From assembly GCF_019039255.1 (NCBI RefSeq), contig NZ_CP077062.1, forward strand, positions 2,728,001-2,792,000: a stretch of DNA of 64,000 nt. Direction: 5' to 3'. Numbering within the stretch: position 1 is the first letter of the stretch; each line of letters begins with the position of its first letter. Of this stretch, positions 16,976-20,186 are shown piece by piece. The notes below the pieces were generated by a model. That model worked only from the letters and a program-made list of their open reading frames with translations, had not been told where the DNA came from and did no database searches. The DNA comes from Nocardioides panacis. GTDB lineage: Bacteria > Actinomycetota > Actinomycetes > Propionibacteriales > Nocardioidaceae. The position numbers and the translations under genes were made by a program.

Positions 16976-19465
16976 TCAGCCGGTGACGATGTTGACCAGC
17001 TTGGGCGCCCGCACGATCACCTTGCGGACGTCCTTGCCGTCCAGCGCCCGCTGGACGTGAGCGTCGGCCATCACCAGCGCCTCCAGGTCGGCCGCGGTGA
17101 TGTCCGGGCTGACCTCCAGCCGGGCGCGCAGCTTGCCCTGTACCTGCACGACGGCAGTCACCGAGTCCTGCACCAGCAGCGCCGGGTCGACCGTCGGCCA
17201 GCCCGCCCGGGCGACGGTCGGCTCGTGGCCCAGCCGCGCCCACATCTCCTCGGCGGTGTACGGCGCCACCAGGCTCAGCAGGATCGCGACCGCCTCGGCG
17301 GCCTCGCGCACGGCCGGGTCGGCCGGGCCGCAGCCCGAGTCGATCGCCTTGCGGGTGGTGTTGACCAGCTCCATGGTGCGGGCGACCAGCACGTTGAACC
17401 GTTGGGTCTCGACCAGCTGCTCCGCGTCGGAGACGGTGCGGTGGGTGGCCTGCCGCAGCCCGACGTCGCCGCCCTCGGCGGGCGTGCCGGGCTCCGAGCC
17501 GACGTCCCCGGACAGCCGCCAGGCGCGCTGCAGGAACTTCACGGAGCCGCCGGGCGACATGTCGGCCCAGTCGATGTCGGCCTCGGGCGGGCCGGCGAAC
17601 ACCATCGTCAGCCGGATCGCGTCGACGCCGAACTCGTCGATCATCTCGCCCAGGTTGACGCCGTTGCCCAGGGACTTGCTCATCCCGCGGCCCTCGTTGA
17701 TGACCTCGCCCTGGTTCAGCAGCCGGGAGAACGGCTCGACGAAGTCGACCAGGCCCATGTCGTGCAGCACCTTGGTGAAGAACCGGCTGTACAGCAGGTG
17801 CAGGATCGCGTGCTCGACGCCACCGACGTACTGCGCCGCCGGCATCCAGTTGCGCACCGCCTTGGGGTCGAAGGGGCCCTCGGTGTAGTGCGGGGAGCAG
17901 TAGCGGAAGAAGTACCAGCTGGAGTCGACGAACGTGTCCATCGTGTCGCTGTCCCGCTTGGCCGGGCCGCCGCACTGCGGGCAGTCCACGTTGACCCAGT
18001 CCGCGGCCGCGGCCAGCGGGGAGACGCCCTTGGGCTTCAGGTCGGCGCCGCTCAGGTCGGGCAGCTCGACCGGCAGCTGGTCCTCGGGCACCGCGACCTC
18101 ACCGCAGGCCCCGCAGTGCACGATCGGGATCGGGGCGCCCCAGTAGCGCTGCCGGCTCAGCAGCCAGTCCCGCAGCCGGAAGTTCACGAAGCCCTTGCCG
18201 ACGCCCTTCTGCTCCAGCCAGCTGATGATCCGGGCCTTGGCCTCGTCCACCGGCAGGCCGTCCAGCGAGATCTCGTCGTTCGCGGAGTTGATGGCCGGTC
18301 CCGAGCCGGTGAACGCCTCGCCGCCGGCCTCCTCGAACCCCTCGGGCGGCTGCACCGTGCGGATGACCGGCAGGCCGAACTTCTTGGCGAACTCCCAGTC
18401 CCGCTGGTCCTGGCCGGGCACCGCCATGATCGCGCCGGTGCCGTAGTCGGCCAGCACGTAGTCGGAGGCCCACACGGGGATCCGCGCGCCGGTGACCGGG
18501 TTCACGGCGGTGACGCCCAGGTCGACGCCGGACTTGGGCCGGTCGGTGGCCAGCCGGTCGATGTCGGTGGCCTTGCGGACCTCGACCAGGTAGTCCTCCA
18601 GGGCCGCGCGCCGCTCCGGGGCACAGAGCTCGGCGGCCATCTTCGCGTCCGCGGCGACCACCATGAACGTGGCGCCGAAGACGGTGTCGGGCCGGGTGGT
18701 GAACACCCGGATCGGGTCGCCGTGGTAGTGCGGCGCGTCGACCGCGAAGTCGATGTGCGCGCCCTCCGAGCGACCGATCCAGTTGCGCTGCATGGCCAGC
18801 ACCTTCGACGGCCAGGTGGCCTCCAGCGGCTCCATGTCGTCCAGCAGCCGCTGGGCGTAGTCGGTGACCTTGAAGTACCACTGCGACAGCTCGCGCTTGG
18901 TGACCTCGGCGCCGCAGCGCTCGCACATGCCCGCGACCACCTGCTCGTTGGCCAGCACGGTCTGGTCGTTGGGGCACCAGTTGACCGGGGAGAACTTGCG
19001 GTAGGCCAGCCCCCGCTCGCGGAACTTCAGGAACAGCCACTGGGTCCAGCGGTAGTACTCCGGGTCGGAGGTGTTCAGGCGGCGGGACCAGTCGAAGGAG
19101 ATGCCGTAGCGCCGGAACGACTCGGCCTGCGTCTCGATGTTGGCGTAGGTGAACACCGCCGGGTTCTCGCCGCGCTTGATCGCGGCGTTCTCGGCGGGCA
19201 GCCCGAAGGAGTCCCAGCCGATCGGGTTCAGCACGTCGTAGCCGCGCTGCCACCAGTAGCGCGCGATCACGTCGTGCAGCGCCATCACCTCGGCGTGGCC
19301 CATGTGCAGGTCACCGCTCGGGTAGGGGAACATCGTCAACGCGTAACGGCGCTCCTTGGACCCGTCGTCGGCCGCCTGGAACGGGTTCAGGTCGTCCCAG
19401 ACCTTGCGCCACTTGTCCTGCGCGGCCGTCACGTCGTAGTGCTGGTCGTGGTCCTGGTCGTCCAT
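16976..19465 (-). CDS. leuS: Leucyl-tRNA synthetase
   Basis: LeuS charges tRNA-Leu. The 829-residue class I enzyme has the HIGH motif as [14 protein letters not shown] (residue about 54), a CP1 editing insertion ([16 protein letters not shown]), zinc-type cysteine pairs (CERC, CGAC, CPQC) and the KMSKS motif as GMSKSLGN near 592. The ATG at 19465 gives [21 protein letters not shown]; longer in-frame extensions would run into the leader region. The upstream leader carries a Leu-codon peptide and an attenuator, so expression is probably raised when charged tRNA-Leu is scarce. It lies convergent with the Rossmann-fold gene. Confidence 0.97.
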
Positions 19466-19508
19466 GGTCTCGTCTTCCCGTCCTGCGTGCTGCTCGGCCT
19501 GGGGGCAC

Positions 19509-19577
19509 AAAAAAACCCCTCAGGAACGAGGGGTAGCCGCGTCGTCCTGCCCGCGAGGGGCACCGGTCAACGCGGCT
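19509..19577 (-). promoter_or_regulatory. Transcription attenuator in the leuS leader
   Basis: On the - strand, ACCCCTC and GAGGGGT (19534-19528 and 19521-19515) form a 7-bp terminator stem with a 6-base loop, followed by seven T's (19515-19509). Upstream, CCCCT (19560-19556) and CAGGA (19549-19545) can instead pair with AGGGG and TCCTG of the terminator's 3' arm, giving a mutually exclusive antiterminator. A further 8-bp stem, AGCCGCGT (19577-19570) with ACGCGGCT (19542-19535), would enclose and sequester the antiterminator strand; its 5' arm overlaps the end of the leader peptide. The pairings are read from the sequence and the switching is inference. Confidence 0.8.
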
Positions 19578-19602
19578 TGCCAAGAAGAAGTGTCGTGCGC
19601 AT
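19567..19602 (-). CDS. leuS leader peptide with three tandem Leu codons
   Basis: This short frame encodes MRTTLLLGKPR and stop. Codons 5-7 are three consecutive CTT leucine codons, a choice almost absent from neighbouring genes, which use CTG and CTC. The peptide ends inside the 5' arm of the anti-antiterminator stem and lies just upstream of a T-run terminator before leuS. Its ATG is 6 bases after a TAGGCT -10 box, so the transcript would start at or next to the ATG, with no Shine-Dalgarno. Leaderless leader peptides are known for amino-acid attenuators in actinobacteria. Confidence 0.78.
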   Translation of the reverse strand: MRTTLLLGKPR

Positions 19603-19608
19603 GCGAAG

Positions 19609-19614
19609 AGCCTA
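19609..19614 (-). promoter_or_regulatory. -10 box of the leuS leader promoter
   Basis: TAGGCT on the - strand fits the actinobacterial TANNNT consensus. The expected start point about 7 bases downstream is the A of the leader-peptide ATG at 19602. No good -35 hexamer is seen. Confidence 0.55.
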
Positions 19615-19649
19615 GCGCACCGGCTGGCGGCGTCGCAGCCGCGTTCTGC

Positions 19650-20114
19650 TCAGCGACCGGTGCCCACGGCCTCGTCGAGGACCGCCTCCAGCCGGACCAG
19701 GGCGTGCGCCAGGCCGGCGTACGTCTCGCGACCCAGTGCCTGCGCCCACTCGTGCTCCAGGCGCACCATGGTCTGCCGGATCACCCCGACGGCGGCCCAG
19801 CCGCGCTCGGTGAGCCGGACCACCCGGGTCCGCCGGTCGTCGGGGTGCGCCTCGCGGACGAGGTAGCCCCCGCTCTCCAGCTGGTGGAGCAGGTGGTTCA
19901 TCGCCTGCTTGGACGCCGACGTGCGCACCGCCAGCACCCCCGGCCGCTGGCCGTCCGGCCCCGGGTGCTGGAACACGCCCAGGTGGGCGGGCAGCACGTC
20001 GTCGAAGCCGGCCCTGTGCAGGCTGGCCATCACCTCGTGGCGCACCAGTACCGCAGGTCGGCGCAGCAGCGCGCCGACCGGTGGCAGCGCGACGTCGTCC
20101 ATCTCGATCGTCAT
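19650..20114 (-). CDS. MarR-family transcriptional regulator
   Basis: The 154-residue protein has the winged-helix core of MarR proteins: SASKQAMNHLLHQLESGGYLVREAHPDDRRTRVVRLTERG, with the DxR wing motif as DDRR. Family members usually repress their own gene and a neighbour and respond to small phenolic or drug-like ligands. The ATG at 20114 is chosen for the GGGGGG tract four bases upstream; an in-frame TTG at 20144 is possible. No obvious target gene adjoins it, since the leuS leader lies downstream. Confidence 0.88.
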   Translation of the reverse strand: MTIEMDDVALPPVGALLRRPAVLVRHEVMASLHRAGFDDVLPAHLGVFQHPGPDGQRPGVLAVRTSASKQAMNHLLHQLESGGYLVREAHPDDRRTRVVRLTERGWAAVGVIRQTMVRLEHEWAQALGRETYAGLAHALVRLEAVLDEAVGTGR

Positions 20115-20186
20115 CTGTCCCCCCCGGACAAGACTTTCCTCCAAGACCCCCCGGCCTCGAGACGAGTGTGCCCCCCCTCAGGGGCG

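Follow-up and report, generated by a model that had tools for sequence, protein, structure and literature searches.

Leucine codons at a fixed distance from a hairpin before leuS in Nocardioides panacis: a probable ribosome-mediated attenuator, and similar scaffolds before genes of branched-chain amino acid synthesis

Leucine attenuators upstream of leuS were predicted in Streptomyces avermitilis and S. coelicolor (Seliverstov et al., 2005, PMC1262725), and RNA-seq of S. lividans TK24 places before leuS a leaderless leader, LeuL2, which encodes MRAVRLLLSEPR and is followed by a terminator (PMC8079986). The kind is thus already known, predicted in 2005 and widespread in related bacteria, and this supersedes the remark of an earlier note on the present locus, made from the DNA letters alone, that attenuators of the synthetase gene itself are less familiar in actinobacteria. 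Other branched-chain systems are to be kept in mind. The LEU element of actinobacterial leuA is a pseudoknot, at the base of which the Shine-Dalgarno box is paired with the Leu codons (PMC1262725). For Corynebacterium glutamicum ilvBNC, an antiterminator role has been assigned to the hairpin that separates the leader from the terminator (PMC11857589). Mutation of the control codons of S. coelicolor ilvB was without effect, as recounted in PMC1262725, a result that speaks against the reading proposed here. The element that we describe here is, with a probability of about three in four, a ribosome-mediated transcription attenuator that would sense the charging of leucyl-tRNA and control leuS, as judged from sequence and its comparison.

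In Nocardioides panacis the whole element occupies the minus strand from 19602 to 19509 of the window, by which we mean the entire stretch of 64,000 nucleotides that was analysed. It begins with a leader of 11 codons, MRTTLLLGKPR (19602–19567, ATG at 19602–19600, TGA at 19569–19567), where three Leu codons, CTT CTT CTT, stand in tandem at 19590–19582; a −10-like box, TAGGCT (19609–19614), is located 6 nucleotides 5′ of the ATG, and a leaderless transcript would be expected. The last codons of the leader contain the 5′ arm (AGCCGCGT, 19570–19577) of an 8-bp helix, stem A, the 3′ arm of which (ACGCGGCT, 19535–19542) adjoins the terminator with no gap in between. This 7-bp hairpin (19515–19534, ACCCCTC at 19534–19528, loop GTTCCT, GAGGGGT at 19521–19515) leads into seven T's (19509–19515), and 43 bases separate the last T from the ATG of leuS. 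The leader, the 8-bp stem and the terminator with its seven T's had been pointed out in the earlier note and are indeed in place, the frame with its three CTT codons being exact to the base; CTT is also rare, as claimed, with none among the 62 Leu codons of the window's leuS.

The gene that follows (16976–19465, minus strand, ATG at 19465) codes for a leucyl-tRNA synthetase that matches TIGR00396 in a profile search with 929.4 bits (cut-off 548.4). The protein is 78% identical to its counterpart in Nocardioides caldifontis, and the best named relatives among the matches listed belong to Nocardioides and Marmoricola (76–78% identity). Upstream of the ATG the frame meets no stop as far as a TTG within the T-run (19510–19508), so that an ORF finder yields an 844-residue version; initiation at 19465 is the more likely. 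A start codon right after the T-run, with GAGGGG as ribosome-binding site, was considered and discarded, as its frame with leuS is inconsistent across loci. A CATGTCSGG-like sequence recurs 3′ of the T-run in many Nocardioides-type loci (for example L024, L037 and L041), its ATG being inconsistently in the leuS frame. On the 5′ side of the leader, and on the same minus strand, lies a MarR-like regulator gene (19650–20144), for which every match is below the curated cut-offs. Rfam 15, with its T-boxes, amino-acid leaders and riboswitches, recovered only a tRNA from the whole window and likewise from six related loci; restricted to 19440–19660, it gave two matches, of 16.0 and 14.8 bits, both below the gathering score.

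We assembled 110 leuS loci, from the best 30 of 57 genomes of the order and from 80 named contigs among the matches listed. A short open reading frame with at least three Leu in four codons, then a hairpin with a T-run, precedes 60 of 108 leuS genes, including that of the window (two of the 110, with less than 150 nucleotides upstream, were omitted), and the same pattern appears in none of 1080 dinucleotide shuffles of those upstream stretches. When pattern searching is combined with inspection by hand the element is present in 67 of the 110 loci, to which the order contributes all of its 30 and the named contigs 37 of their 80. The search pattern used there fixes parts of the terminator and leaves free both the spacing between codon and stem and the 3′ arm of that stem; the window's locus, in which AAG replaces the CAG or TAG of relatives, and three others fall outside it and were added by hand. 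With these patterns the element was not found at the named leuS loci of Microbacterium, Agromyces and Aeromicrobium.

In the window's genome, a covariance model of the element has a single strong match, at 77.3 bits (E 3e-17); this score is partly obtained by construction because the window is one of the model's 46 rows. The next four matches are at or below 16.3 bits. Across the class, 170 of 296 genomes have a match at E ≤0.01, a figure that mixes genes, and 111 of 296, from 23 families, have one of at least 42 bits. Forty loci above this score were read, some of them from genomes behind the model: leuS comes next in 39 and the contig ends in one. One genome (G250) holds two matches, of 71.2 and 59.5 bits, on contigs C30 and C5. 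Among 30 weaker loci the next open reading frame is an acetolactate synthase in 15, citramalate synthase-like in 10, leuA in one, leuS in one and unlabelled in three, these labels resting on family searches for one acetolactate synthase, one citramalate synthase-like and one leuA case, and on judgement by eye for the rest. Relatives devoid of the element, which the earlier note would have held against its reading, do occur in places: within the window's family 10 of 25 genomes have no match to the model, eight of them being all eight genomes of one genus, and the other 15 have one.

Alignment of the sequence upstream of leuS in relatives, proposed at the outset as a check, bore out the expectation, with Leu-codon leaders retained and both helices covarying (67 loci, 46 aligned). 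On these 46 of the 67 sequences RNAalifold recovers stem A and the terminator unaided. Cells where both sides of a pair have changed number 67, whereas shuffles give 20.2 and sliding the partner never gives more than 9; such changes affect 6 of the 10 pairs of stem A, the outermost of which is formed in 14 of 46 sequences only, and 3 of the 7 of the terminator. One of five covariation measures, that of further pair types, was equalled by 10 of 500 shuffles, and the other four by none or one. The leader is constrained too. Each of the 67 relatives has an in-frame Leu codon exactly 5 nucleotides 5′ of the GCC at the stem base; 64 use CTT at this place and 3 use CTC, although CTT makes up 0.4% of the 4437 Leu codons of the leuS reading frames of the same relatives. 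The start of the stem falls within a codon that reads TAG in 31 loci, CAG in 18 and another sense codon in 18 (AAG in the window). Since the leader's stop varies in position, before the stem arm in 31 of 67 loci and after it in the others, what is fixed is the place of the control codon rather than that of the stop. Upstream, TAnnnT precedes the in-frame leader start by 6 or 7 nucleotides in 66 of the 67 loci; in the remaining one a contig end interrupts the sequence. Because the shuffles are negative, the helices covary, and both CTT and the 5-nucleotide spacing are fixed, a leucine-responsive ribosome-mediated attenuator is well supported.

The same scaffold recurs before other genes, with other codons. 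Among the best 30 citramalate synthase loci of the order, 26 are preceded by an isoleucine leader of the same layout (family check with TIGR00977, 642 bits, cut-off 450). The cimA gene of the window's own genome is one such case, with a leader of Ile codons, MQQSPVIIS then stop, a stem and a terminator (G000:C1:817911–817991, locus L193:1371–1452). In 24 of the 26 loci ATT serves as control codon, against 1.6% of the 499 Ile codons of those genes; the distance from codon to stem was imposed rather than discovered in the pattern search for cimA elements, which fixes it at 5 or 6 nucleotides. In 27 sequences 47 cells have changed on both sides, against 14.1 in shuffles, one of five measures (further pair types) being equalled by 60 of 500 shuffles and the other four by none or one. 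A second covariance model, built on these elements, has matches at E ≤1e-4 in 201 of the 296 genomes of the class. We read 70 of its loci, about 20 of them from genomes behind the model: the next gene is citramalate synthase in 64, acetolactate synthase in 2, threonine ammonia-lyase-like in 3 and unlabelled in one. The three threonine ammonia-lyase-like cases, L269, L270 and L271, are in three genomes of one family and have ATT followed by ACG or ACC before the stop; the one gene that was searched scored 299.9 bits, below the family cut-off of 496. At L154, a leader reading MTNLLLT then stop is found, on the same scaffold, before a gene for a bacterial-type 2-isopropylmalate synthase (NF002086, 716.9 bits).

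Acetolactate synthase is preceded by this scaffold with Ile-Leu-Val-Leu codons and citramalate synthase with Ile codons, so that the choice of codons matches the pathway in which the gene acts. In the window's genome L112 (G000:C1:803973–804060, plus strand), a weak match of 16.3 bits to the leuS model, has a leader MRFDILVRSRRGC then stop, and a terminator, before an open reading frame labelled by eye as acetolactate synthase-like. Over the leuS and cimA-type sets the final control codon nearly always ends in U, CTT in 64 of 67 and ATT in 46 of 57, in genomes that use such codons very rarely. Our literature search did not find a published report of the Ile-codon scaffold before cimA, although a 2010 comparative review by Lopatovskaya et al. 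may already describe wider leuS or cimA cases; the words cimA and citramalate are absent from the S. lividans article (PMC8079986). The Ile-codon scaffold suggests that isoleucine made by the citramalate route is under charged-tRNA control in much of the class.

We may now consider how the leuS element would operate. A leaderless transcript would begin at the leader's ATG, and a ribosome would translate the 11 codons. When leucyl-tRNA is short, this ribosome would stall once the last CUU has entered the A site, and its leading edge would then rest on the base of stem A; when leucyl-tRNA is ample, it would reach the stop and leave, stem A and the adjacent terminator would fold, and transcription would end before leuS. 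By sequence and comparison the leader, the fixed distance from codon to stem, stem A and the terminator are in place, together with a predicted promoter box. From these we infer the stall, its block of stem A and a lower termination once stem A is lost. A hairpin that overlaps the end of the leader is likewise present, as stem A, for which the ribosome would compete. The weakest step is the one by which loss of stem A would lower termination: a strand able to capture the 5′ arm of the terminator exists in the window, and such a pairing is not conserved.

The textbook answer to this difficulty is an antiterminator, and the earlier note had drawn one, pairing CCCCT...CAGGA (19545–19560, minus strand) with AGGGG/TCCTG, that is 19560–19556 and 19549–19545 with 19520–19516 and 19525–19521. 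Taken in full, with this classical antiterminator deciding in the present species, that model is possible and on the unlikely side. The pairing can certainly be drawn, at −11.1 kcal/mol against −12.7 for the terminator helix alone; in the stalled state the best fold deprived of any terminator pair reaches −20.3 kcal/mol, against −26.0 with the terminator. The 5′ arm of the window's terminator is also more often paired in the stalled state (0.79) than in the free one (0.55), yet 27% of shuffled spacers do as much, and the antiterminator shows no conservation in relatives nor, where its strands vary, any co-evolution. There, the pairing of this arm is 0.15 when free and 0.27 under a simulated stall (66 of 67 parsed, L046 being out), a rise in the direction expected for capture, yet below the 0.44 obtained with shuffled spacers. 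With the leader masked, equilibrium folds of ten relatives retain the terminator. What survives of the original leucine attenuator, then, is the Leu leader, the terminator on leuS and the stall codon locked to the stem; the particular antiterminator is unsupported beyond the window's sequence.

Other capturing strands fared no better. Pairing of the 3′ arm of stem A with the terminator loop gains no support from comparison with shuffled loops, over which it has no advantage (mean p 0.55, 65 relatives, L046 and L060 out). Pairing of the spacer with the terminator's 5′ arm is unsupported by fold statistics and by swaps of strands between sequences, and pairing of the spacer or the Leu codons with the terminator's 3′ arm by swaps, both in leuS and in cimA elements. 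In these swaps, which are blind to invariant strands, five antiterminator pairings of leuS had mean ranks of 0.46–0.52 (33 sequences kept, drawn from the 67 minus L046 and L060, whose terminators were unparsed) and four of cimA had 0.53–0.59 (45 kept), with no co-evolution; for two of the leuS candidates 0.15 and 0.18 of the sequences ranked below 0.1, where chance gives 0.1, their mean ranks being near one half. Stem A and the terminator were matched, at 0.17 and 0.22 in leuS and at 0.10 and 0.06 in cimA. As these two are matched and the antiterminator candidates are not, we adopted a role of stem A that favours termination. The last step may then be a capture of the 5′ arm that varies, an influence that the neighbouring helix exerts directly, or the opposite role, as in C. 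glutamicum ilvBNC.

In this opposite scheme, which has been proposed for C. glutamicum ilvBNC and which we regard as rather improbable here, stem A would itself be the antiterminator: an early stall would free it to hinder the terminator base, and a ribosome at the stop would cover its 5′ arm and let the terminator fold. Stem A and the terminator abut, with no gap in the window and 0–2 nucleotides in 54 of 57 cimA-type elements; a ribosome at either of the stop positions would cover the 5′ arm; and in C. glutamicum, where the control codons are CUU and GUA, the adjacent hairpins share their boundary trinucleotide (PMC11857589). Against this, the two helices of the window have no base in common, so that they can form at once, and the lowest-energy fold of the leader holds both; moreover a stall at the fixed last CUU would cover the 5′ arm of stem A, not free it. 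Finally, that we deal with the ordinary terminator of the MarR-like gene, which does end at 19650 on the strand of leuS, and with a chance reading frame is most improbable in view of the absence of leader plus terminator from all shuffles, of the covariation of stem A with the leader's codons and of the constancy of CTT and spacing in relatives.

Returning to a stem A that favours termination, it is tempting, if doubtful, to see a single attenuator design for leucine, isoleucine and mixed branched-chain sensing in Actinomycetes, unlike that of trp: a control codon that ends in U and keeps a constant distance would bring the ribosome, when it stalls, onto the base of a stem directly adjoining the terminator, and termination would be set by whether or not this adjoining helix forms, not by an alternative pairing. 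Just as tentatively, leuS, cimA and ilvB would be under this design, with leuA and the threonine ammonia-lyase-like gene in single families. Comparison separates what is conserved, a leader, a fixed spacing and two abutting hairpins, from a textbook demand that is not seen, the antiterminator, and the switching step becomes thereby directly testable.

Set beside the described systems, the element would share with the E. coli trp attenuator (PMC1183508) the principle that a ribosome held up at control codons determines whether transcription terminates or continues; in trp, alternative pairings link segments I to IV in a chain, whereas only two hairpins are backed by comparison here. The LEU element of leuA differs both in gene and in layout, the window having a terminator. 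C. glutamicum ilvBNC (PMC11857589) and the ilvB-II motif (PMC10272879) have, like the element, a leader of branched-chain codons and a hairpin adjoining the terminator, and their transcription starts one nucleotide from the leader start, much as predicted here; they differ in gene and codons, and in having three hairpins with a terminator that overlaps its neighbour by a trinucleotide. LeuL2 of S. lividans (PMC8079986) is leaderless, as expected for the window's leader, and like the latter it is placed before leuS and followed by a hairpin and a U-run. It has 12 codons with CTT CTG CTT, where the window has 11 with CTT CTT CTT and AAG replacing GAG before CCGCG; five loci of one family (L140–L144) encode ATGCGTGCCGTACGCCTTCTGCTTAGCGAGCCGCGCTGA, the same peptide as LeuL2. 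The Streptomyces candidates of 2005 (PMC1262725) have in common with the window a Leu-codon leader, a hairpin and a T-run terminator directly before leuS. They belong to another actinobacterial family and were marked with an antiterminator hairpin, whereas a conserved alternative pairing is unsupported here. The leuS case thus extends that prediction to many families and gives it a statistical footing.
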